Of a stretch of DNA of 64,000 nucleotides, positions 9,719 to 46,890 are shown in pieces. Position 1 is the first letter of the stretch. Every line of letters begins with the position of its first letter. The notes beneath the pieces were generated by a model, which did no database searches, was not told where the DNA came from, and worked only from the letters and a program-made list of their open reading frames with translations. Location: the NCBI GenBank assembly GCA_018645325.1, contig JABGOU010000002.1, forward strand, positions 111,345 through 175,344. The letters run 5' to 3'. This DNA comes from Desulfobacula sp. (GTDB taxonomy: Bacteria; Desulfobacterota; Desulfobacteria; Desulfobacterales; Desulfobacteraceae). A program made the position numbers and the translations under genes.

Positions 9719-10733
9719 AGGTGAGTATGGGCGTTCTTCCATCTATGTGGGTGAACGTTTAAAAAACTTGAAAAACTATCTTCCTTCTTCCCAAACCATT
9801 ATCATAACAGATGAAAATATAAAAAAATATTATCGAAAAGAATTCCCAAATGTTCCAGTCATAACAATTGGAACAGGAGAAGAGATTAAAACTCTTGCCA
9901 CCATTGAGACCATATTAAAAAAACTTATGCATTATTCCTGCGATCGCTCAAGCTTTATTGTAGGAATCGGTGGTGGTATTGTCTGTGATATTGTTGGATT
10001 TGCAGCCTCTGTCTTTTTAAGAGGTGTAAACTTTGGATTTGTATCCACATCTCTTTTGTCCCAGGTGGATGCCAGTGTTGGCGGAAAAAACGGAGTTAAC
10101 CTGGATTTTTATAAAAATATGGTCGGCGTTTTTAACCAACCCGAATTTGTCATTTGCGATCTTGATCTTTTAAACACCTTGCCGAAAAAAGAAATTTCAA
10201 ATGGTCTTGCCGAAATCGTCAAACATGCGCTTATTTTAGATAAAAATATGTTTGATTTTATTGAAGAAAACAGTCAGAAAGCACTTTCTCTTGATTATGA
10301 TACAATTTTCAGGCTTGTTGCAGAGTCCGTGAAAATAAAATCACAAGTGGTCCAGCAGGATGAAAAAGAATCCCATTTAAGAAAAAAACTCAATTTCGGC
10401 CACACCATTGGTCACGCCATTGAAAAGATCGAAAAGGAAGGCCACGGGAAAGCTGTTGCCGTGGGAATGCTGGCGGCTGCCAAATTTTCACAGGCAAGAA
10501 AGCTCATAAGCCTTGAAGACGTTTCAAGAATCTCTTCGGTTTTAAGTGACCTTAACCTTCAGACAGAATTTGATTATAATGCAGAAGAGATTATACTTGC
10601 TGCCAGTAAAGACAAAAAAAAACAGGGCAACTATCTTTTTTACGTTTTTCTTGAACAAATCGGAAAAGCAGGGGTTGAAAAAATCAGCTTTGATGAAATG
10701 AATAAATTCATATACTCAATTTTTGAAAAATAA
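9699..10733 (+). CDS. aroB: 3-dehydroquinate synthase
   Basis: Second shikimate-pathway enzyme, converting DAHP to 3-dehydroquinate with NAD+ and a divalent metal. The 344 residues include the NAD loop GIGGGIVCDIVGFAAS, the DASVGGKNGVN phosphate-binding loop and the metal site FGHTIGHAIE. Overlap with the DAHP synthase gene implies translational coupling of steps one and two. The stop codon TAA is also the first three bases of the nested palindrome 10731-10896, which probably ends the transcript. Confidence 0.96.
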   Translation: MKTFHIKGEYGRSSIYVGERLKNLKNYLPSSQTIIITDENIKKYYRKEFPNVPVITIGTGEEIKTLATIETILKKLMHYSCDRSSFIVGIGGGIVCDIVGFAASVFLRGVNFGFVSTSLLSQVDASVGGKNGVNLDFYKNMVGVFNQPEFVICDLDLLNTLPKKEISNGLAEIVKHALILDKNMFDFIEENSQKALSLDYDTIFRLVAESVKIKSQVVQQDEKESHLRKKLNFGHTIGHAIEKIEKEGHGKAVAVGMLAAAKFSQARKLISLEDVSRISSVLSDLNLQTEFDYNAEEIILAASKDKKKQGNYLFYVFLEQIGKAGVEKISFDEMNKFIYSIFEK

Positions 10734-10896
10734 GGACCGCAAATGAAATAAGTTGAGCAGAAATAGCGCAGGATTTTGGCCCATATACAAGGCGCATTAA
10801 AGGTTGCATACTGTACGTATTCAGCCTTTGACGCAACAAAGTAGATGGGCCAAAAGAAAAGCAATTTCGTTCAAGTTATAAACTTTGTGGTCCTAA
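10731..10896. repeat. 166-bp nested palindromic element
   Basis: Three nested inverted repeats share one centre. Outer arms 10731-10756 (TAAGGACCGCAAATGAAATA...) and 10871-10896 are imperfect. Middle arms TTTTGGCCCATATAC (10774-10788) and GTAGATGGGCCAAAA (10841-10855) differ at one position. The core 10799-10829 reads nearly the same on both strands around TGTACGTA. The element starts on the aroB stop codon and ends just before the rubrerythrin ribosome site. One outer arm recurs at 8761-8782. It looks like a non-coding mobile palindrome (MITE or REP-like), possibly acting as a terminator. Confidence 0.75.
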
Positions 10897-10920
10897 ATAG
10901 ATGACAAAGGAGGAAAATTT

Positions 10921-11496
10921 ATGACAAGTATAAAAGGAACCCAAACCGAAAAAAACCTTTTAACCGCTTTTGCAGGTGAGTCCCAGGCAAGAAACCGGTA
11001 TACTTATTTTGCAAGTGCAGCAAAAAAAGAAGGCTTTGTTCAAATCTCAAACATTTTTACAGAGACTGCCAACCAGGAAAAAGAACACGCTAAACGATTT
11101 TTCAAATTTCTTGAAGGTGGGGAACTTGAAATCACTAATGCATTTCCCGCAGGCATGATAGGAACTACCTTTGAAAACCTCAAAGAGGCTGCAGCAGGAG
11201 AAAAATTTGAATGGACACAAATGTATCCTGACTTTGCTAAAACTGCCAGGCAAGAAGGATTTGATGACATTGCTTATGTTTTTGAAATGATTTCCGTGGC
11301 AGAAAAACAGCATGGAAAAAGATATGCACAGCTGGCTGTCAATGTAGAAAAGGGAACCGTGTTTAAAAAAGAGAGCAATACAAAATGGCAGTGCGGAAAC
11401 TGTGGATATGTTCATGAAGGAGAAGAAGCCATTGAAATGTGTCCTGCCTGTTTACATCCCCAGGCTCATTTTGAGCTGCTGGTTGAAAACTGGTAA
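10921..11496 (+). CDS. rbr: Rubrerythrin
   Basis: Non-haem di-iron peroxidase that reduces hydrogen peroxide in anaerobes. The 191 residues hold the four-helix di-iron domain with GESQARNRYTYFA, ETANQEKEHAKRFF and MISVAEKQHGKRYAQL supplying Glu and His ligands, then a C-terminal rubredoxin domain with CGNCGYVHEG and CPACLHPQ (four cysteines for iron). This is a full two-domain rubrerythrin. AAAGGAGG precedes the ATG. It is a single gene between the palindromic element and a predicted terminator. Confidence 0.96.
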   Translation: MTSIKGTQTEKNLLTAFAGESQARNRYTYFASAAKKEGFVQISNIFTETANQEKEHAKRFFKFLEGGELEITNAFPAGMIGTTFENLKEAAAGEKFEWTQMYPDFAKTARQEGFDDIAYVFEMISVAEKQHGKRYAQLAVNVEKGTVFKKESNTKWQCGNCGYVHEGEEAIEMCPACLHPQAHFELLVENW

Positions 11497-11520
11497 AATG
11501 TATTAGCTGGTAATAGGATT

Positions 11521-11576
11521 TAAGGGGTTAAACTGCTTTGAGTAAATCATCAAAAGCTATTGCCCCTTATTCTTAT
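11521..11576 (+). terminator. Possible terminator after rubrerythrin
   Basis: TAAGGGG (11521-11527) and CCCCTTA (11563-11569) form an outer stem around an inner GCTTT/AAAGC stem, followed by TTCTTATTT. The stem is interrupted, so the call is moderate. Confidence 0.45.
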
Positions 11577-11595
11577 TTCGAACCTAATTGATTAA

Positions 11596-11623
11596 TTGAC
11601 AAAAAATGAATAAGCACTATATT
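11596..11623 (+). promoter_or_regulatory. Predicted sigma-70 promoter of trxA-trxB
   Basis: TTGACA (11596-11601) and TATATT (11618-11623) with a 16-base spacer, 46 bases before the trxA ATG. A near-consensus match seen by eye. Confidence 0.6.
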
Positions 11624-11669
11624 TACAAGGATATTTTTTAATCATAAACTTTAATTTAGGACGGTTGTC

Positions 11670-11996
11670 ATGACAAAAAATATAATTGAACTTGAAGATG
11701 ATTCCTTTGAGGAAAGAGTCCTTAAATCAGATAAGCCTGTAATGGTGGATTTCTGGGCACCCTGGTGTGGTCCTTGTAAAGCCATTGCTCCCACGATTGA
11801 TGCACTTGAAAAAGAGTATGGTGACAAAATGATCTTTGCAAAAGTAAACGTTGATGAAAATCCAATCACCCCCAGTAAATATGGTGTTCAGGCAATACCT
11901 ACACTGATTTTCTTCAAAGCTGGCGAAATAGCAGACCAGATCACGGGAATGGTTGCCAAAGAAAAACTTGAAGAAACAATCAAAGGGGTCTTGTAA
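11670..11996 (+). CDS. trxA: Thioredoxin
   Basis: Small dithiol reductant, 108 residues, thioredoxin fold. The active site W32-CGPC-K37 is canonical, and the cis-proline loop is AIPTLIFFKAG. It is followed after 11 bases by thioredoxin reductase, so enzyme and substrate are co-transcribed. Cytoplasmic: no signal peptide. Confidence 0.97.
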   Translation: MTKNIIELEDDSFEERVLKSDKPVMVDFWAPWCGPCKAIAPTIDALEKEYGDKMIFAKVNVDENPITPSKYGVQAIPTLIFFKAGEIADQITGMVAKEKLEETIKGVL

Positions 11997-12007
11997 GGAG
12001 AGGTTTA

Positions 12008-12928
12008 ATGTCAAAAAGTAACTATGACCTTGTAATTATTGGTGCAGGTCCTGCCGGTCTGACAGCTGGTATGTACGCAGCAAGGGCAAGAATGAATGTA
12101 CTTTTACTGGAAAAGGCCGTACCCGGTGGTCAGATCCTGGTAACTGACTGGATAGAAAACTACCCTGGTTTTCCCGAAGGCATTTCAGGATTTGATCTTT
12201 CTGAAAAAATGAGAATCCAGGCCGAAGAAATGGGATTGAAAATTGAGATTGCAGAGGTTCATTCTCTTAATCTTTCCAAGGAATTAAAAGAAATTGTTTT
12301 AAAAGACAGGAGTATTATCACGAAAAGTCTTATTATTGCATCCGGGGCCTCCCCAAAAAACCTTGGCATTGGCGAGGATAAATTTATCGGAAAGGGGGTT
12401 TCCTTTTGTGCCACTTGTGATGCACCTTTTTTTAAGGGAAAAACCGTTGTTGCCATAGGCGGAGGAGATACTGCAGTCCAGGAAGCCATATTCCTGACAA
12501 AATTTGCAAAAAAAGTCTATCTGATTCACAGGAGAGATGAGCTTCGAGCAGCAAAAATACTTCAGGAACGAGCTTTTGAAAATAATAAGATTGAAATTGT
12601 CTGGGACAGTGTTGCAACCAGTATTGAAGGCTTTTTCGGCGTAGAGAGCGTTAAGATAAAAAATATTAAAACCAATGAAGAAAAAGTTTTAAAGGCTGAC
12701 GGCTGTTTTATATGGGTTGGTATTTTACCAAACACATCATTTTTAAATGATGCAGTTGAAACAGATGAGTTCGGTTTTATTCTTGCGGACACTAAAATGC
12801 AGACATCTGTTCCCGGCGTTTATGCTGTGGGGGATGTAAGAGATACACCCTTAAGACAGATAACAACTGCCGTAGGAGATGCTGCTATTGCTGCCTTATC
12901 TGCAGAACATTTTATTGAGAACCTTTAA
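12008..12928 (+). CDS. trxB: Thioredoxin reductase
   Basis: Flavoprotein that reduces the neighbouring thioredoxin. The 306 residues show the FAD site GAGPAGLTAGMYAARA, the redox disulfide C134-x2-C137 (SFCATCDAPFF), the nucleotide site GGGDTAVQEA with HRRDELRA, whose arginines suggest NADPH, and the C-terminal FAD motif GVYAVGDVRD. Its stop codon overlaps the start of the following lipoprotein gene. Confidence 0.96.
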   Translation: MSKSNYDLVIIGAGPAGLTAGMYAARARMNVLLLEKAVPGGQILVTDWIENYPGFPEGISGFDLSEKMRIQAEEMGLKIEIAEVHSLNLSKELKEIVLKDRSIITKSLIIASGASPKNLGIGEDKFIGKGVSFCATCDAPFFKGKTVVAIGGGDTAVQEAIFLTKFAKKVYLIHRRDELRAAKILQERAFENNKIEIVWDSVATSIEGFFGVESVKIKNIKTNEEKVLKADGCFIWVGILPNTSFLNDAVETDEFGFILADTKMQTSVPGVYAVGDVRDTPLRQITTAVGDAAIAALSAEHFIENL

Positions 12929-13581
12929 TGATGAAAAAATTATTATTATTATTTACGATTGTTTTGCTGGTTTCAGGATGCTCTCTGTTTGAAAGCTCAC
13001 ATGAAATGGAAAAAAGTGCTGAGGAACTTGTTTCAGAAGGTTCTTCAGCCTTTATGGATGAAAAATATAAAAATGCGATAAAAGCATATACTGATCTAAA
13101 GGATTGGTATCCGTTCAGTAAGTATGCCATTTTAGCTGAGCTGAAAATTGCAGATTCCTATTATCATCTTGAAAAATATGATGAAGCAGTACTTGCCTAT
13201 GAAGCTTTTGAAAAAATGCATCCAAAAAATGATGCTGTTCCTTATGTTATATACAGAACCGGGCTCTGCTGGTTTAACCAACTTGATACTGTAGACAGAG
13301 ATCAAACCCCTGCTAAAAACAGCATGGATCAGTTCAAGAGGCTTATTGACCAATATCCTGAAAGTGAGTACGTCCAAGAAGCAGAGGAAAAAATTCAACT
13401 ATGTGTTGAAAACCTTTCAGCACATGAATTCTATGTGGCCAATTTCTATTATAAAACAAAAAAATATAAATCGGCATTAAAAAGATATGAGTCTCTTGTC
13501 ACAAATTACCCGAACTCAAAAGAAAGTAAAGAAGCATTAAATAAAATTATTGAGTGCAGGGCATTGGCAAACAAAATTTAA
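12928..13581 (+). CDS. bamD: BamD-like outer-membrane assembly lipoprotein
   Basis: Predicted lipoprotein of the outer-membrane beta-barrel assembly machine. The N-terminus MMKKLLLLFTIVLLVSGC is a lipoprotein signal with the acylated cysteine at 18. The rest (217 residues in all) is a string of TPR-like helical hairpins, including AIKAYTDLKDWYPFSKYAILAELK-type repeats as in BamD/ComL; a second set near AEEKIQLCVENLSAHEFYVA is typical of BamD. It overlaps trxB by one base. Some YbgF-type or other TPR lipoproteins look similar, but length and motif order fit BamD best. Confidence 0.82.
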   Translation: MMKKLLLLFTIVLLVSGCSLFESSHEMEKSAEELVSEGSSAFMDEKYKNAIKAYTDLKDWYPFSKYAILAELKIADSYYHLEKYDEAVLAYEAFEKMHPKNDAVPYVIYRTGLCWFNQLDTVDRDQTPAKNSMDQFKRLIDQYPESEYVQEAEEKIQLCVENLSAHEFYVANFYYKTKKYKSALKRYESLVTNYPNSKESKEALNKIIECRALANKI

Positions 13582-13666
13582 AAATTTCTTTACTTTTATT
13601 TATTTTTAATATATCTATCCAAGGTTATTATTTTGTTAAAAAGATTTTTCTTTTAGGAGTATAAAA

Positions 13667-13861
13667 ATGGCGAAAGAATGTGCAATTTGCGGAAAGAAAC
13701 CAATGGTTGGCAATAATGTCAGCCATGCCCATAATTTGAATAAGAGAGTATTTAATCCCAATCTTCAAAGAGTTCGTGCAGTAATTAAAGAAGGTTGTGT
13801 TAGAAAAATAGATGTCTGTACAAGCTGTATCAAAGCAGGAAAAGTAACTAAAGCCTCTTAA
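13667..13861 (+). CDS. rpmB: 50S ribosomal protein L28 (zinc-binding form)
   Basis: Large-subunit ribosomal protein, 64 residues. [19 protein letters not shown] at the N-terminus is the family signature. Cysteines 5, 8, 51 and 54 form two CxxC pairs, so this is the zinc-ribbon (C+) version. TTAGGAG precedes the ATG. L33, often its neighbour, is not here. Confidence 0.95.
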
Positions 13862-13890
13862 GACTGCTTGCTTATTTTAAAAATATTTAT

Positions 13891-13949
13891 GGTTCGGGCC
13901 GTTAAGTAAGACTGCTCGAACCTTTATTTTTGTAATCTGATTACAAAAA
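13891..13949. terminator. Terminators between convergent rpmB and rel
   Basis: GGTTCGGGC (13891-13899) pairs with GCTCGAACC (13914-13922) and is followed by TTTATTTTTG, which suits rpmB. Next to it TTTTTGTAATC (13927-13937) and GATTACAAAAA (13939-13949) form a perfect palindrome with a one-base centre, able to work on both strands. Confidence 0.75.
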
Positions 13950-13997
13950 TTTTGATGCAAATTCGAAAGTGCATACCTTTTTTAATATTGTTATAAT

Positions 13998-16151
13998 TTA
14001 TTCAGCTCTGACAATTCGTTTGACATCTGTCACTTTTTTTACTTTCCTGATATCTATCATAATTTTTCTAAGCTGGGCTGTACTTTCAACCAGGATGGTA
14101 AAATAAAATAGACCGAGGCCTGTTTCATTTGTTTCTGTTTTAGCATTTAATATATTTGATTTATATTTGCTGATCACAGAAGCTATATCTGCTAAAAGTC
14201 CAAACCTGTCCTCTGTCCTGACCCTTATATTTGCAGGATATGATTCTGTAAAGTCTTTACTCCACTGGACTTCAATCTGACGCTCATTGCTCATTTTCAT
14301 GACATTCACACACCCTTTTCGGTGAATAGTCACACCCTGGCCCTGGGTAATATAACCGATTATGGGATCTCCCGGAAGTGGGTTGCAGCATTTTGAAAAT
14401 CGGACAAGAATATCATTCAGCCCTTTTACGATGATGCCGGTACTGTCTTTTTTCTTCCGTTTTCCAACCAGTTTTTGAAGAATATTTCCTTTTTTAACTT
14501 CCTGTTTTTCAAGTTCAGGCAAAGCTTTATTCAAAACCTGTAAAGGAGTGAGTTTTCCAAAGCCCACATGGGCAATCAGATCATCAATTGATTTAAAACC
14601 ATAGTTATCGGCAACTTTTTTGATTTCTCCTGATTTAACCAAAGCATTAAAATTCTGATTTTTCTTTCTAAATGTTTTTTCACATATCTCTCTTCCCAGG
14701 GAATAACTTCTCTCTTTTTCCCTGGCATTAATCCAGGACCTTATTTTAGTTCTGGCTTTTACCGTCTTTACGAAATTCAGCCAGTCAGGGCTAGGGGTAT
14801 GACCTTTGGTTGTGATAATTTCTATTTTATCTCCGGTCTTCAATTTATGTGGAAGCTGCACCATTTTTCCGTTGACCTTTGCTCCTGTACACTCGGCACC
14901 AACTTCCGTATGGATCAGATAAGCAAAGTCGACGGGTGTTGCCTTTTTAGGCAGAGTTTTGATCTCGCCCTGGGGTGTGAATACATATATTTCATCAGGA
15001 TACAGATCCATTCTCACATTTTCTAAAAATTCATCCGGATCATTATAATGTTCCTGGTTTTCCACAAGCTTACTGATCCAGGAAAAAAGTTCTCCAGTAT
15101 TTTCATCAACTTTCGTACCTTCTTTATAACTCCAGTGAGCAGCAATTCCGGATTCTGCAATCTTATCCATATCCCTGGTCCTGATCTGCATTTCAACCCG
15201 TTCTCCTTTCGGGCCCACAACAGTGGTATGTATGGATTGATACATATTGGGCTTAGGGTTACCGATATAATCTTTAATTTTATAGTAAATCGGCTTATAC
15301 ATGGAATGAATAGCACCCATGGCGGCATAACACTGGGGAACCGTATCCAGAATAATTCTAAATGCAATGATATCGTAGACCTCATCAAATTCAAGACTCT
15401 GAGATATCATTTTCTGATAAATGCTGTAATGCTGCTTATAACGCCCTTTTATTTCACCTTCCAGCCCCATCTCCCTCATTTTATCGTAAAGTTTCTCATT
15501 CACCTCTTTAATGTACTCGTCTTTTTCATCTTTGGCTTTATTCACCAGGGTATCAATACGTTCATATTCATCTCTTAAAGTGTAATAAAACGCAATTTCC
15601 TCAAGTTCATATTTGATCCAAAAAATCCCCAGACGTGCAGCTATTGGGGCATAAATATCCAGTGTTTCCTGTGCAATGGCTGCCTGTTTCTCAGGAATGC
15701 GATGATATTTTAAAGTCCTCATATTATGGATCCTGTCCGCAAGCTTGATCAGAACCACCCTTATATCATCAGCCATGGCAAGAATCATTTTTCTTAAACT
15801 TTCAGCCTGCTGGGCTATTTTGGTTGAAAACGGCAAAGCTGAGAGTTTTGTTACACCTGAAACTATATGGGCCACACCCGGTCCGAACATCTTTTCAATG
15901 TCTTCTTTTGTTGCCGGAGTATCTTCAATAACATCATGCAGAAGGGCTGCAGCAATGCTCTCAACATCCAGACGCATGTCAGCTAAAATACTGGCCACCT
16001 CAAGGGGATGGGACAAATATGGTTCTCCTGAAAGTCTGACCTGGCCTTCATGGACTCTTGCCGAGTAAACATAGGCCCGGTCTATTATATCTAAATCTCC
16101 ATCGGGATTATATTCCTCTATTTTATCCAGTATGTCTGTGATCCTGATCAT
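13998..16151 (-). CDS. rel: Bifunctional (p)ppGpp synthetase/hydrolase
   Basis: Makes and degrades the stringent-response alarmone. The 717 residues follow the RelA/SpoT order: HD hydrolase domain with H34, H48 and the H72-D73 pair (ALLHDVIEDT); synthetase domain with YIGNPKPNMYQSIHTTV and VEMQIRT (catalytic Glu near 320); TGS domain (IYVFTPQGEIKTLP); a zinc-finger-like CCNPLPGD; and a C-terminal ACT domain. The intact HD motif means it should hydrolyse as well as make ppGpp, as the sole Rel of many deltaproteobacteria does. It lies 9 bases after proS in the same direction. Confidence 0.95.
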   Translation of the reverse strand: MIRITDILDKIEEYNPDGDLDIIDRAYVYSARVHEGQVRLSGEPYLSHPLEVASILADMRLDVESIAAALLHDVIEDTPATKEDIEKMFGPGVAHIVSGVTKLSALPFSTKIAQQAESLRKMILAMADDIRVVLIKLADRIHNMRTLKYHRIPEKQAAIAQETLDIYAPIAARLGIFWIKYELEEIAFYYTLRDEYERIDTLVNKAKDEKDEYIKEVNEKLYDKMREMGLEGEIKGRYKQHYSIYQKMISQSLEFDEVYDIIAFRIILDTVPQCYAAMGAIHSMYKPIYYKIKDYIGNPKPNMYQSIHTTVVGPKGERVEMQIRTRDMDKIAESGIAAHWSYKEGTKVDENTGELFSWISKLVENQEHYNDPDEFLENVRMDLYPDEIYVFTPQGEIKTLPKKATPVDFAYLIHTEVGAECTGAKVNGKMVQLPHKLKTGDKIEIITTKGHTPSPDWLNFVKTVKARTKIRSWINAREKERSYSLGREICEKTFRKKNQNFNALVKSGEIKKVADNYGFKSIDDLIAHVGFGKLTPLQVLNKALPELEKQEVKKGNILQKLVGKRKKKDSTGIIVKGLNDILVRFSKCCNPLPGDPIIGYITQGQGVTIHRKGCVNVMKMSNERQIEVQWSKDFTESYPANIRVRTEDRFGLLADIASVISKYKSNILNAKTETNETGLGLFYFTILVESTAQLRKIMIDIRKVKKVTDVKRIVRAE

Positions 16152-16160
16152 AAGCTGTGC

Positions 16161-17672
16161 TTAATATGCTTTTGCAAAAAGAACCCTTCGTGAGCTTGAG
16201 TTATCACAACAAATACATTTACCTTCTTCTGTAGGGCTGTCAAAAGGAATGCAGCGGATAGTAACTGATAAATCATTCTTTATTTTTTCTTCACATTTTT
16301 CAGACCCGCACCAATGGGCCATGACAAAGGCACCATTATTATATCCACCCGTATTTTTATATAGCTTGTAAAACTCTTTTTTATCATCAATTTCAAAGGT
16401 ATTTTCTTTTTGATAGGTAATTGCCCGATTAAAGAGATTATCCTGCATGTCGTCCAGAATATCTGTGATCTGATCAACAAATTCTTCTCTATTCATGGAT
16501 TGTTTCTGACCTGCCGGTTTATCCCTTCTGCCCATAAAAACAGAATTATTTTCAATGTCCCGGGGGCCCAGTTCAATCCGAATGGGAATACCTTTTTTAA
16601 CCCAGTCCCAACCTCTGGCACCTCCGATATCCCTATCATCTATTTCAACCTTAATCTTTATGCCGTGGAATAATTTTTCTTCCAGCACATCTTTAAGACC
16701 CTGGGTGCTTTCCATGATTGTTCGGCTATCTTCACCTTTTTTAAAAATTGGAAGAATAACGACATGGGCAGGTGCCACCCGTGGAGGAAGCACAAGGCCA
16801 TCATCATCAGAGTGCACCATGATCATCCCGCCTATCATCCGGGTGGAGGTTCCCCAGGATGTAGTCCAGGCATATGCTTCTTCACCCTCTTCATTCTGAA
16901 ATTTAATATCAGATCCTTTGGCAAAATTCTGGCCCAGAAAATGGGAGGTGCCAGCCTGAAGAGCCCTCTTATCCTGCATCATAGCTTCAATACAGGTGGT
17001 ATCGTCAGCTCCTGGAAATCGTTCTGCAACGGTCTTCTGGCCCCGGATCACTGGCATTGCCAGATATTCTTCAACAAATTTTGTATAGACATCCAGCATA
17101 AGCATGGTTCGCTCTTTTGCCTCCTGCTCTGTGGCATGGGCAGTATGACCTTCCTGCCATAAAAATTCGCTGGTTCTTAAAAACATCCGGGTCCGCATTT
17201 CCCATCGAACCACATTGGCCCACTGGTTTAAAAGAAGCGGAAGATCCCTGTAACTTTCCGTCCACCTGGCCATGGATTCCCCGATAATGGTTTCAGACGT
17301 AGGACGAACAATTAAAGGTTCAGCAAGTTTGCCTGCCGGATTTAAACCGCCTTTACCATCCTTTTCAAGCCTGTGATGGGTTACAACTGCACACTCTTTT
17401 GCAAACCCTTCCACATGCTCTGCCTCTTTCTCCAGATAACTTAAAGGAATAAACAAGGGGAAATAGGCATTTTTTACCCCGGTTTCCTTAAACATTATAT
17501 CCATCCTATGCACGATATTTTCCCAAAGCGCATATCCCCAGGGTTTTATTACCATACATCCCCTGACAGGTGAATTTTCAGCCATATCAGATGCTTTAAC
17601 CACTTCCTGATACCAGGCTGAATAGTCCTGCTCCCGGGTGGGTGATATCGCTGATTTATTCTTCTTGCTCAT
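16161..17672 (-). CDS. proS: Prolyl-tRNA synthetase, archaeal/eukaryotic type
   Basis: Class II synthetase charging tRNA-Pro. At 503 residues without the large editing insertion it belongs to the short archaeal-eukaryotic type rather than the 570-residue bacterial type. Motifs seen: VRPTSETIIGESMARW, RWEMRTRMFLRTSEFLWQEGHTA and AYAWTTSWGTSTRMIGG. The C-terminal zinc domain (CGSEKCEE, then CICC) ends in the conserved terminal tyrosine (AKAY). Its start overlaps the end of ispG by 17 bases, so translation of the two is likely coupled. Confidence 0.95.
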   Translation of the reverse strand: MSKKNKSAISPTREQDYSAWYQEVVKASDMAENSPVRGCMVIKPWGYALWENIVHRMDIMFKETGVKNAYFPLFIPLSYLEKEAEHVEGFAKECAVVTHHRLEKDGKGGLNPAGKLAEPLIVRPTSETIIGESMARWTESYRDLPLLLNQWANVVRWEMRTRMFLRTSEFLWQEGHTAHATEQEAKERTMLMLDVYTKFVEEYLAMPVIRGQKTVAERFPGADDTTCIEAMMQDKRALQAGTSHFLGQNFAKGSDIKFQNEEGEEAYAWTTSWGTSTRMIGGMIMVHSDDDGLVLPPRVAPAHVVILPIFKKGEDSRTIMESTQGLKDVLEEKLFHGIKIKVEIDDRDIGGARGWDWVKKGIPIRIELGPRDIENNSVFMGRRDKPAGQKQSMNREEFVDQITDILDDMQDNLFNRAITYQKENTFEIDDKKEFYKLYKNTGGYNNGAFVMAHWCGSEKCEEKIKNDLSVTIRCIPFDSPTEEGKCICCDNSSSRRVLFAKAY

Positions 17673-18750
17673 TCAATTCCTCCGAATTATTTGTCATATT
17701 ATCAATTTCGTCCAGCAATTGGTCCACAAGTTGATTCTGGTCTATTTTTCGGATCACTTTTCCTTTTTTAAATAAAATCCCCATTCCATCACCGCCTGCA
17801 ATACCTATATCTGCTTCCTTTGCTTCACCAGGACCGTTTACAACGCATCCCATAATAGCAACTTTAATCTGGGAGGGCTGTTCAAGTAAAGCTTTTTCTA
17901 CTTTCTCCGTAATTTTAAAAAGATCAATCTTACACCGTCCGCAAGTCGGACATGAAATCAGTTCCGGCCCTCGGTTTCTGATTCCTAAGGCCCTTAAGAT
18001 CTCAAACCCTGTCCTGATTTCTTCAACAGGATCCCTTGTTAATGAGACCCGGATAGTATCACCAAGGCCCTGGGCCAGGAGCATACCAATACCAATGGCT
18101 GATTTTGTGATGCCTGCATAAAGACCGCCGGCCTCAGTTATTCCTACATGAAACGGCACATTAGTTTTTGAAGACAATAATTGATAAGCCTTTACAGTTC
18201 TTGAAACATCCGAGGCTTTCAGAGAAACTTTGATATCATAAAAATTTAAATCTTCAAGAATTTTTATATTACGCAAGGCGCTTTGTACCATAGCCTCAGC
18301 CGTTGTGCCAAGGCGTTGTTCAATCAGTTTTTCAAGTGAGCCTGCATTCACACCGATTCTTATGGGAATTCCATGATCTTTTGCACAATCCACCACAGCC
18401 CTGATTTTTTTTGTTTCCCCGATATTACCGGGGTTTATTCTCAAGGCGTCTGCACCTGCCCTTGCAGATGCCAGGGCCAGCCTGTAATCAAAATGAATGT
18501 CTGCAATGATAGGGATTGTGATCTGCTGTTTGATCTTTTCAATTGCTAAAGCCGCTTCCTTATCTGGAACCGCCACTCTTATTATTTCGCATCCTGCCTT
18601 TTCAAGGGCCTTGATCTGGAGTGTTGTCGCTTTTACATCCTGTGTCTGAGTGTTGGTCATAGACTGGACCGAAATAGGTGCCTTAGAGCCTATCTTAACA
18701 TTGCCAATACTGATTTGCCGAGTTTCCCGTCTTTTTTGAACCAATGACAT
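17656..18750 (-). CDS. ispG: 4-hydroxy-3-methylbut-2-enyl diphosphate synthase
   Basis: Iron-sulfur enzyme of the MEP isoprenoid pathway (GcpE). The 364 residues start SIGNVKIGSKAPISVQSMTN and carry ISCPTCGRCKID and MGCVVNGPGEAKEADIGIAGG, which supply the three cysteines of the [4Fe-4S] cluster. It is the short bacterial form without the plant-type insertion. It heads the ispG-proS-rel run on the minus strand; no other MEP gene is in the window. Confidence 0.96.
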   Translation of the reverse strand: MSLVQKRRETRQISIGNVKIGSKAPISVQSMTNTQTQDVKATTLQIKALEKAGCEIIRVAVPDKEAALAIEKIKQQITIPIIADIHFDYRLALASARAGADALRINPGNIGETKKIRAVVDCAKDHGIPIRIGVNAGSLEKLIEQRLGTTAEAMVQSALRNIKILEDLNFYDIKVSLKASDVSRTVKAYQLLSSKTNVPFHVGITEAGGLYAGITKSAIGIGMLLAQGLGDTIRVSLTRDPVEEIRTGFEILRALGIRNRGPELISCPTCGRCKIDLFKITEKVEKALLEQPSQIKVAIMGCVVNGPGEAKEADIGIAGGDGMGILFKKGKVIRKIDQNQLVDQLLDEIDNMTNNSEELNEQEE

Positions 18751-40583: not shown

Positions 40584-41711
40584 CTAGAGGACCAGACCCA
40601 GTGCATCCTCGAGCTTTTTGACCGTTCGATCAATATTTTGCAGTTTGTCAAGGCCGAATAATCCAAGTCTAAAAGTCTGGAAGTCTTCCGGCTCATCACA
40701 TACTAAAGGAACCCCTGCAGCAGTCTGTATTCCTATCTCTGAAAATTTTTTCCCCGTGTGAATACCAATATCTTTTGTATAGCTGACAATAACACCCGGA
40801 GCCTGGAATCCCTCTGCCGCAACACTTTTGATGCCATTGCTTTTAAGCAGTGCCCTGACTTTGTCTCCCAGCTCATACTGCTGAGCACAGGCTTTCTCAA
40901 AACCATAGTTTTCTGTTTCTTTCATCACATTTCTAAAAGCTCTTAGTGAATCAGTGGGCATTGTTGCGTGATAAGCATGTCCGCCGTTCTCATATGCCTC
41001 CATAATTTTAAACCACTTAAGCAAATCGCAGGCATAACTGGTACTTATAGTTGTTTCTATTCTTTCTTTTGCAAGGGAGCTCAGCATTACCAATCCACTG
41101 CAGGGTGATCCGCTCCAGCCTTTTTGTGGTGCAGTTATAAGAATGTCTATACCACTTTTTTCCATGTCCACCCAAATTGTTCCCGAGGCAACACAATCTA
41201 AAACAAAAAGGCCTCCAACTGAATGTACAGCATCTGCCACTGCGAAAAGATAATCGTCAGGAAGGATCATACCTGATGAGGTTTCAACATGCGGGGCAAA
41301 AACAACTTCTGGTTTTTCAGCCTTTATGGTTGCTATAACTTCTTTGATTGGAGCAGGTGCAAAGGAGGCTTGTTTGCTGTCATCAACAGGGCGGGCTTTT
41401 AATACAATGGATTCAAGCGGAATATCACACATATCAAAAATCTGGGTCCAGCGATAACTAAACCAACCGTTTCGAATAACAAGACATCTTTTATCTGTTG
41501 CAAATTGCCGTGCAACGGCTTCCATGGCAAACGTACCACCTCCTGGAACGATCACAACTGCTTTGGCCTTGTATACTTTTTTAAACGTGGTGGAAATATC
41601 ATTCATCACTCCTTGGAATGATTGAGACATATGGTTAAGTGACCGGTCTGTGAAAACCACTGAGTATTCTAGTAACCCATCCGGGTCAATATCTGGAAGT
41701 AATCCTGGCAT
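40584..41711 (-). CDS. Class V aminotransferase (alanine-glyoxylate type)
   Basis: PLP enzyme of 375 residues. VVIVPGGGTFAMEAVARQF is the N-terminal cofactor loop, VETSSGMILPDDY and FVLDCVASGTIWVDM (with Asp) contact PLP, and the lysine lies in ITAPQKGWSGSPCSG. The pattern matches the serine/alanine-glyoxylate aminotransferase group, which also includes aminoethylphosphonate transaminases and soluble hydrogenase small subunits. The exact amino donor is not clear. Single gene; minus-strand coding ends here and plus-strand coding begins next. Confidence 0.8.
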   Translation of the reverse strand: MPGLLPDIDPDGLLEYSVVFTDRSLNHMSQSFQGVMNDISTTFKKVYKAKAVVIVPGGGTFAMEAVARQFATDKRCLVIRNGWFSYRWTQIFDMCDIPLESIVLKARPVDDSKQASFAPAPIKEVIATIKAEKPEVVFAPHVETSSGMILPDDYLFAVADAVHSVGGLFVLDCVASGTIWVDMEKSGIDILITAPQKGWSGSPCSGLVMLSSLAKERIETTISTSYACDLLKWFKIMEAYENGGHAYHATMPTDSLRAFRNVMKETENYGFEKACAQQYELGDKVRALLKSNGIKSVAAEGFQAPGVIVSYTKDIGIHTGKKFSEIGIQTAAGVPLVCDEPEDFQTFRLGLFGLDKLQNIDRTVKKLEDALGLVL

Positions 41712-41913
41712 ATATATATCCTTCTGTTAAAATTGAAAAATTTATCAAAAATGTTTGTATATGGCAAGAATAAAAAAAAGGACAAAAGGATTGTATTGAT
41801 TCAAAAGATTAAAGAAGAATCCTGTTAATTTTTATTCAACTATGATAAAAAGAATCGGTTCGAGCAATATATTATTTTTAATTAAAATAACTATTTATAA
41901 CAAGGATAAATAT

Positions 41914-42528
41914 ATGGGATTAATCTCTTCAACACATTCTGTCAGCCGGTATCATATTGATGGAAAAATTGAGGGTTCATTAATAGATGAAGTGCGAAAT
42001 GGTTTAATAAAACATTCAATTCCAAAAATTGAAAGTGACTATGATGAAATCTCAGCCGGGTGGACACCGGTTGAAAGTCCTTATAATCCGGATTTTGATA
42101 AATTTTCTTTCCTTTTTGGAACTTATTTTCTTTTTTCACTGAGAATTGATAAAAAAGCAATCCCTGCCAAAGTGATCCAAAAATATATGGCCATTGAAAT
42201 TGAAAAAAAAAAAGAAAAATCAGGAAGAGATTTTATTTCCAAAAATGAAAAAACTGAAATAAAAGAAATGGTGATAGACATTTTAATGCATAAAATTCCG
42301 GCAATTCCTAATTTATATGATGTATTGTGGGATTATGAAAAAAAAAATTTATACCTTTATACCACACAGAAAGCAGCTAATGAGTTTTTTGAAACCATAT
42401 TTTTAAAATCCTTTAATTTAAAACCCATTAGACTTTTCCCCTATACCATTGTTGAAACCAAATCCAAATTTTCCAACCCGCAAAAAGACCGGGTCCAAAC
42501 ACTTGTCCCTTTAAAATATTCGAGGTAA
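41914..42528 (+). CDS. RdgC-like recombination-associated protein (short form)
   Basis: 204 residues from ATG 41914, which has AAGGA upstream; an earlier ATG at 41842 has no such site. The stretch KAIPAKVIQKYMAIEIEKKK, then KNEKTEIKEMVIDILMHKIP, LWDYEKKNLYLYTTQKAANE and FLKSFNLKPIRLFP, follow the order of RdgC, the ring-shaped DNA-binding protein that tempers RecA action. E. coli RdgC has about 300 residues, so this is the shorter form that I recall from deltaproteobacteria. The next gene starts 5 bases after the stop, and dnaN lies 800 bases on. Confidence 0.7.
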   Translation: MGLISSTHSVSRYHIDGKIEGSLIDEVRNGLIKHSIPKIESDYDEISAGWTPVESPYNPDFDKFSFLFGTYFLFSLRIDKKAIPAKVIQKYMAIEIEKKKEKSGRDFISKNEKTEIKEMVIDILMHKIPAIPNLYDVLWDYEKKNLYLYTTQKAANEFFETIFLKSFNLKPIRLFPYTIVETKSKFSNPQKDRVQTLVPLKYSR

Positions 42529-42533
42529 TCTTT

Positions 42534-43067
42534 ATGCTTGATATTGCAACTGCTTATAATAAATACAAATTTCTTGGAAATGATTATCTAACCTGGATCT
42601 GGTTTTTAATTGAAACTGATCAGAATATTTCATCTCTTTTAAACTCAAAAGATGTAGTTACACTTGAAGTTGGTAATTCAATTGTTCTTGAAAATAAATT
42701 AGGGGATAAATCAAAGGAAAAAATTACCATAAAAGGGGATCAGGCAGGCCTGGAAGAAGGAACTACTGCTTTAAAAAAAGGTGCCTATGTCACTCAGATC
42801 AACCTTGTCTGTAAAATTAATGAAGATGAGTATAGGTTCACCATCAAGGGTGAGAGTCTTAATATTACAGGTCTTAAAACTCCAAAAACAGATCTGTCAA
42901 CCAAAGAAAATGAAATAGAAGGAGTGGTATTGGAAAAATCTTTTTTTTGTTTTAATATTTTTAAAGTTATTGACACTCTTTTTTTAAATTATCTTGAACA
43001 AAGAACAGCAGATGAATGGAATATAAAAGGATTACAGGATATTAGAAACTGGATTGGATCATTTTAA
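42534..43067 (+). CDS. Uncharacterised partner of the RdgC-like protein
   Basis: 177 residues, unrecognised by family name. It opens KFLGNDYLTWIWFLIETDQ, has a central beta-rich half (EVGNSIVLENKLGD, EDEYRFTIKGESLNITGL), an acidic linker, and a helical tail with VIDTLFLNYLEQRTADEWN. No signal peptide, membrane helix, zinc motif or nucleotide site is seen. GAGG precedes the ATG and the 5-base gap means co-translation with the RdgC-like gene, so a role in the same DNA-binding complex is a reasonable inference and no more. Confidence 0.75.
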   Translation: MLDIATAYNKYKFLGNDYLTWIWFLIETDQNISSLLNSKDVVTLEVGNSIVLENKLGDKSKEKITIKGDQAGLEEGTTALKKGAYVTQINLVCKINEDEYRFTIKGESLNITGLKTPKTDLSTKENEIEGVVLEKSFFCFNIFKVIDTLFLNYLEQRTADEWNIKGLQDIRNWIGSF

Positions 43068-43080
43068 TAAATTGTTTAAA

Positions 43081-43320
43081 AAAAGCTAGTTTTGAACACT
43101 TTAAAATAATGATACAAAAACGATATTTTTTTATCTAATAATAAACCAATCTTAAAATATTTTTTATTAAAATTTAGTAATAATTTTAATAACTTAAAAA
43201 GTTATAAACATTTAAACACTCTTTATTATTATTATTAATTTTTTAAATATATAATTAATAAAACCATACATATTTATTAATTGATAAAACAAATTATTTG
43301 ATATAAATATTAATGAATAT
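43081..43320. other. Extremely AT-rich tract before dnaN (candidate origin)
   Basis: These 240 bases contain only 28 G or C (about 12%), and 43141-43320 only 17 in 180. TTATAAACA at 43202-43210 is one base from the DnaA-box consensus TTATNCACA; I saw no exact box. No gene fits. Position before dnaN-gyrB and at a coding-strand switch suggests a DNA-unwinding element, but dnaA and a box cluster are missing from view. Confidence 0.4.
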
Positions 43321-43345
43321 ATAATTTTTTTGAAAAGGAACTTAA

Positions 43346-46890
<3,545 letters not shown>

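Follow-up and report, generated by a model that had tools for sequence, protein, structure and literature searches.

A divergent two-gene relative of RdgC upstream of dnaN in Desulfobacula and its split and fused forms in the Desulfobacterota

According to the sections of PMC11077077 that treat them, RdgC homologues are ring-shaped dimers that close through base and tip contacts and bind DNA without sequence specificity. The same sections describe a base domain, in which four helices flank five antiparallel strands, and, in addition, a center domain, the tip consisting of two helices placed between center strands 4 and 5. RdgC is an inhibitor of RecA and becomes important in the absence of PriB-dependent restart, as stated in the relevant passages of PMC9713433. 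Other remote relatives of RdgC are already known, namely RexA and the RdgC-like proteins of histone operons (available text of PMC11390915), and in the accessible text of the openly licensed literature on RdgC we found no report of a split RdgC. Here we describe a locus of Desulfobacula sp., in a window of 64,000 nt (the whole stretch of DNA that was analysed), where the two halves of an RdgC-type protein are encoded by two adjacent genes, P1 and P2.

P1 (41914..42528, + strand) encodes a 204-aa protein with a pI of 9.1, which PF04381, an AlphaFold2 model and Foldseek assign to the N-terminal half of RdgC (center and tip domains). Its start is the ATG at 41914, where M1 is invariant in 60 aligned sequences, and it is preceded by AAGGA (41902..41906, +), the likely P1 ribosome-binding site; a longer open reading frame from 41842 was, on these grounds, not supported. 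P2 (42534..43067, +) encodes a 177-aa protein with a pI of 4.9, assigned to the C-terminal half (base domain) by phrog_724, fused relatives, AlphaFold2 and Foldseek; it begins with the ATG at 42534 and its stop codon ends at 43067. The P1/P2 junction (42520..42536, +) comprises GAGG at 42522-42525, the P1 stop codon TAA at 42526-42528, a 5-nt gap and the P2 ATG. The GAGG just 5′ of the P1 stop is likely the P2 ribosome-binding site, and judging from the sequence the translation of P2 is apparently coupled to that of P1. Behind the pair, and outside it, lie an AT-rich tract (43068..43345, no strand assigned; 88% AT), which is a candidate origin with a DnaA-box-like array, a near-consensus promoter-like site before dnaN (TTGATA-16-TATAAT, 43298..43325, +; a consensus match only), dnaN for the replication clamp (43346..44467, +; TIGR00663, 232.8 bits) and gyrB (44464..46890, +; TIGR01059, 959.4 bits). 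The earlier note had described an RdgC homologue co-translated with a second gene upstream of an AT-rich tract and dnaN, and all three statements were borne out, the first by the PF04381 score and RdgC fold of P1 and the second, from sequence, by the 5-nt gap and the GAGG.

The closest named relatives of the window locus, among the best 80 of 513 relatives, belong to Desulfobacula, a genus with 22 other genomes listed besides the window's own. Of the 24 near-complete genomes in the relatives set, the window's own among them, 23 have both P1 and P2. One relative, G031, has two copies of the pair. PF04381 matches in 38 relatives were listed at 28 places in 27 genomes; all 28 are P1-type genes, and these listed matches include no separate RdgC besides them.

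P1 matched the Pfam RdgC profile PF04381 with 37.7 bits (cut-off 25) over profile positions 21-161 of 298. No match to P2 was obtained in Pfam, NCBIfam or PADLOC up to an E-value of 1, and a profile of P2 found no RdgC chain in the PDB but two weak unrelated chains (E 0.05 and 1.5). Since PADLOC matches neither P1 nor P2, a defence system was rejected. The phage RdgC family phrog_724 covers both proteins, its N half (41-150 of 312) matching P1 and its C half (188-265 of 312) matching P2 at E 6e-4; 14 of 22 P2 homologues also match it (best E 2e-5), and none of the 22 is matched by PF04381. Against the NCBIfam RdgC model (PRK00321), the best score of P1 was 39.9 bits, far under the cut-off of 227. 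Because of this shortfall the pair is, by profile score, a divergent two-gene relative and not an RdgC equivalog, and its function may have drifted from that of RdgC.

We searched 296 genomes of the phylum, each at least 90% complete, with the P1 and P2 profiles. The P1 profile matched 145 genomes and the P2 profile 141, and 147 genomes were matched by neither. Among the 149 carriers, 55 have the fused form only, 92 the split form only and two (G164, G239) both, a genome tally that was summed by hand; once weak and contig-edge cases are read, both types are present in every carrier. P2-type sequence is thus a separate gene in 94 of the 149 carriers (92 split only plus the two with both forms). 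Among the 30 best loci, ten have P1-type followed by P2-type sequence in one frame and 20 have them in neighbouring frames on one strand. List matching yielded 48 fused places, 85 split and adjacent, six spaced by ~1.5-3 kb (five genomes plus G217, a duplicate fragment of a genome already counted) and five with P2 but without a listed P1. Four of these five are fused, with a divergent N half (L057, L062, L234, L270), and the fifth (G220) is divided between contig edges; in the eight genomes with a listed P1 only, the DNA shows P2 in all (five fused, three split). The fused relatives are mostly open frames of ~360-440 aa. A fused and a split copy occur in one genome in G239 (L157, L158) and in G164 (L300, L301), and two genomes outside the order Desulfobacterales (G158, G317) carry extra canonical RdgC genes of ~300 aa (L188, L189, L190) beside the split form. 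Among sulfate-reducing bacteria and their relatives the split form is both frequent and stable.

The fused relatives were compared with RdgC by sequence. All nine that were scanned exceed the PF04381 cut-off, some narrowly (25.6 against 25), and a profile built from ten of them finds 2owl (E 1.4e-5) and 2owy (E 1.7e-4) through its N half; the C half of that profile alone gave no significant match to an RdgC chain. Canonical RdgC proteins of ~300 aa (three genes, two genomes) match the P1 profile with their N end (E 1e-13 to 5e-19), and the C end of the same three matches the P2 profiles weakly (E 3e-4 to 0.07). By such comparisons the similarity of P2 to RdgC is weak, so that the identification of P2 draws more on its fused relatives and its fold than on direct similarity in sequence.

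AlphaFold2 models of P1 and P2 were compared with the PDB by Foldseek, the underlying structure alignments having 60 rows (P1) and 64 rows (P2) drawn from 73 and 79 complete sequences, respectively, plus the window. The P2 model (pLDDT 85.1, pTM 0.82) has five strands with flanking helices, and its first three matches are the RdgC chains 2owy_A, 2owl_A and 2owl_B (probability 1.00, E 6e-3 to 2e-2, query TM 0.48-0.53), the probability dropping to 0.41 at rank 4. The P1 model (pLDDT 86.1, pTM 0.73) has two helices (85-103 and 110-127) between strands 71-80 and 131-140, and its top three matches are the same RdgC chains (probability 1.00, E 8e-9 to 6e-8). Its lower matches, with much lower scores, are inner-kinetochore (CCAN) and other chains (best CCAN probability 0.87, query TM 0.29). 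The five-stranded sheet and flanking helices of P2 agree with the base domain, and the two helices of P1 with the tip, as both are portrayed in the cited sections of PMC11077077. The predicted models thus contain every domain of the RdgC fold (center, tip and base), spread over the two proteins. Because P1 shows tip-like helices and P2 base-like strands, P1 is predicted to be center plus tip and P2 the dimerising base domain, and the break would fall between center and base. The 177-residue product, which the earlier note had taken for a protein of no known family, is the C-terminal (base-domain) half of RdgC rather than a separate unknown partner, since it is in one frame with P1 in 57 of the 149 carriers (two of them also split) and has the RdgC fold.

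That RdgC is one gene in reference bacteria would fit an rdgC gene that is decaying or has been frameshifted, or else an error of assembly, and single cases among the phylum genomes may include sequencing frameshifts. Against this, P2 is a separate frame in all 80 named loci (the best 80 of 513 relatives, a set that leans to the order). Junctions were counted in 76 of the 80, L069, L083, L103 and L105 being left out for want of a P1 match. The gap is 12 nt or less at 70 of the 76 named junctions, nine of these overlapping, one junction has a 204-nt spacer, and a Shine-Dalgarno-like tetramer lies within 18 nt of the P2 start at 63 of 76, as against 21% of random windows. P1 and P2 stand in each of the three frame relations at some junctions (38, 23 and 15 of the 76). 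A programmed frameshift or stop read-through joining P1 to P2 was rejected in view of the three frame relations and of spacers up to 204 nt. Median dN/dS was 0.109 for P1 and 0.121 for P2 (66 pairs each from 12 same-genus sequences, with finite dS in 64 and 66 pairs, respectively); both genes are under purifying selection. With dN/dS at ~0.11 and a ribosome site and stop-start spacing that recur, a broken gene is refuted for the window locus, and its overall probability is negligible. On a FastTree tree of 130 tips (one family, a subset of carrier genomes, with G164 and G239 at two places each), Fitch parsimony counted five changes between split and fused forms, as against a mean of 39.8 and a minimum of 33 in 200 label shuffles; as the tree is midpoint-rooted and of a single family, five is an approximate number, for events in either direction. 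Few changes on the tree, a dN/dS of ~0.11 and the retention of both halves on different contigs in two genomes (those of L083 and L103) show that the split arrangement is old and selected.

The earlier note had proposed a survey of whether the two genes always occur together. Of the named loci (the best 80 of 513), 74 extend upstream by more than 650 bp, and 72 of these have P1 immediately before P2, a result in favour of the pairing. In the genomes of the two others, L083 and L103, P1 is on another contig and P2 is single; P1 is followed by a saccharopine-dehydrogenase-like gene, not P2, in the L103 genome, and lies ~180 bp from a contig end, with no P2 sequence behind it there, in the L083 genome. 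These two genomes, together with the five in which the halves are ~1.5-3 kb apart, are what would be seen if the two RdgC-derived proteins had gone separate ways, P1 binding DNA on its own as a basic protein and P2 forming a dimer that serves another partner, with co-expression as the main reason for their linkage. The conservation of both as separate genes, their opposite charges (pI 9.1 and 4.9) and G333, which has P2 and in which P1 was not found, point in the same direction. However, all carriers have both types, adjacency is nearly universal in the named loci, and the lone cases sit at contig edges: P2 begins its contig (L105) in G333, and P1 ends 2 nt before a contig end in G009. We therefore regard such a parting as unlikely. 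In both loci examined among the five widely spaced genomes (L183 1308-2996, L184 2209-4191), a TPR-repeat gene lies between the halves, and it may encode a third partner.

The reading that we prefer, and consider probable, is that the pair is a two-subunit RdgC, a P1(2)P2(2) ring on duplex DNA that restrains RecA; its assembly, its encirclement of DNA and its restraint of RecA are what we infer from the ring shape and RecA inhibition of RdgC, as given in the sections cited of PMC11077077 and PMC9713433, and from the charges of P1 and P2. P2 would be translated in coupling with P1, two P2 chains would pair through their β-sheets, each holding one P1, and the two P1 tips would close the ring, with duplex DNA in a basic channel lined by P1. 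The opposite charges fit an arrangement in which P1 lines the channel and P2 forms the joint, and because of its acidity P2 is unlikely to bind DNA by itself. Like RdgC of E. coli, the ring would bind duplex DNA without sequence preference and would keep RecA off where it is unwanted, for example at stalled forks.

The relation of the pair to dnaN was read from 70 named loci (of the best 80 of 513), those that extend 1500 bp or more downstream. dnaN lies downstream in 41 of them, within 600 bp in 39, and is absent in 29. In complete genomes outside the order the family is at least ~170 kb from dnaN in 12 of 12, so that the linkage is a lineage trait; in addition, none of seven fused loci with several kb of flank has dnaN. 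Proximity to dnaN, which the earlier note had proposed to survey, thus held for 41 of the 70 named loci and for none of the 12 complete genomes outside the order. The idea that co-transcription with dnaN explains the locus found no support, given the promoter-like site before dnaN and the loss of linkage elsewhere; the region as a whole has five promoter-consensus matches, fewer than its shuffles (mean 11.9). In L149, from G007, a complete genome of the window's genus, 7.7 kb (10204-17906) with sigma-54 activator, 4Fe-4S, NrfD and cytochrome c genes separates P2 from dnaN. The cumulative GC skew of the window has its minimum at 41612. In the complete genome G032, the skew is positive in the 11 samples between 0 and 2.25 Mb and negative in the nine between 2.45 and 4.25 Mb, and the pair, at 4.42 of 4.46 Mb, is inside the interval where the skew turns from minus to plus; the sampled skew of G007 is irregular and places the minimum only within ~1 Mb of dnaN. 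The locus may sit by a replication origin.

Among 278-bp stretches of the window, the one with the highest AT fraction begins at 43100 (0.89, as against 0.77 for the next), and the tract has TTWTNAACA sites at 43073 (−), 43090 (+) and 43202 (+). This motif corresponds to the DnaA box with C changed to A at position 6. It occurs 120 times in 39 tracts between P2 and dnaN (window included; the tracts are related and not independent), as against 9.0 (sd 2.9, maximum 16) in 100 dinucleotide shuffles, and its density is 11.2 per kb in the tracts but 0.34 per kb in the rest of these loci. No canonical DnaA box was found in the window, and TTWTNCACA has one site in the 39 tracts. In the 38 named loci (of the best 80 of 513) with dnaN 150-600 bp away, the size of the tract is conserved, it is AT-richer than its own locus in 37 (the exception is L127), and at least two array sites stand behind P2 in 34; the array is absent behind P2 in G032 and in three loci with a short P2-dnaN gap. 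It is also present behind P2 without dnaN in four of the 29 named loci with room (L079, L083, L098, L100), with up to 12 sites, and L095, whose contig ends 728 bp on, carries array sites too. In Desulfamplus, eight and 12 sites lie right behind P2 in L098 (6565-6721) and L100 (6575-6821), dnaN not being in the available stretch, and a third locus (L099) has none behind P2. The array before dnaN is doubled in L149, the copies being 626 bp apart and ~80% identical, and in L079 (10008-10360; Desulfobacter vibrioformis) a C-terminal fragment of P2 and two array sites are repeated 3.7 kb behind the intact P2. dnaA is far from dnaN in the two complete genomes of the order that were examined, at 1.27 Mb (G032) and ~2.5 Mb (G007). 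An origin beside dnaA was rejected, since dnaA is more than 1 Mb from dnaN and no strong array lies near it in G000, G007 or G032; a group of three TTWTNAACA sites, 12 bp apart, does lie ~430 bp upstream of dnaA in G007. The tract between P2 and dnaN is a candidate oriC.

The earlier note had suggested a role in replication start or in fork protection. A dedicated start factor, acting with the clamp at the adjacent candidate origin, would account for dnaN behind the pair in 41 of 70 testable named loci, for the skew at the window locus and in G032, and for an array that stands by P2 even in four of 29 loci without dnaN. Yet 29 of the 70 lack dnaN, the family is remote from it in all 12 complete genomes outside the order, 147 of the 296 phylum genomes match neither profile, G032 has no array beside the pair and the skew of G007 is irregular, and the fold belongs to a protein that binds DNA without specificity, as depicted in the cited sections of PMC11077077. 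We consider a start factor very unlikely; the other half of the suggestion, a role at forks and on RecA, is plausible from the family. For the two-subunit ring proposed above, it is conceivable, though rather improbable, that the split lets the ring open by subunit exchange at the center/base joint and so permits regulated loading and unloading on closed circular DNA; in Desulfobacteraceae it would be loaded beside the candidate oriC and guard new forks, a clamp-like use of RdgC.

These results give a likely identity to P2, a conserved 'hypothetical' protein. They indicate that RdgC also occurs as a long-established protein of two subunits, distant from the E. coli type, whose naturally separated domains lend themselves to studies of the opening of an RdgC ring and its loading on DNA. 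The pair shares with the RdgC proteins of E. coli and Pseudomonas (PF04381; 2owl, 2owy) the fold of both halves, the order of center/tip then base, the N-terminal profile match of P1 and, probably, the ring on duplex DNA. It differs in being two polypeptides of 204 and 177 aa instead of one chain of ~303 aa, and in that P1 is far below the NCBIfam RdgC cut-offs and P2 beyond the reach of Pfam. The fused RdgC-like proteins of the phylum likewise combine P1- and P2-type sequence, but in one chain. As far as the sections on them in PMC11077077 and PMC11390915 go, RexA of phage lambda and the RdgC-like protein of histone operons in Bacillus and Halobacteria have, by structure, an RdgC-type fold in a single chain, the former with RexB as partner and the latter with a histone and a membrane protein. 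The inner-kinetochore pairs Iml3-Chl4 and CENP-L-CENP-N, as described in PMC11077077, place an RdgC-related fold on DNA as a heterodimer in which each subunit has both domains, whereas in P1/P2 the domains themselves are the subunits.
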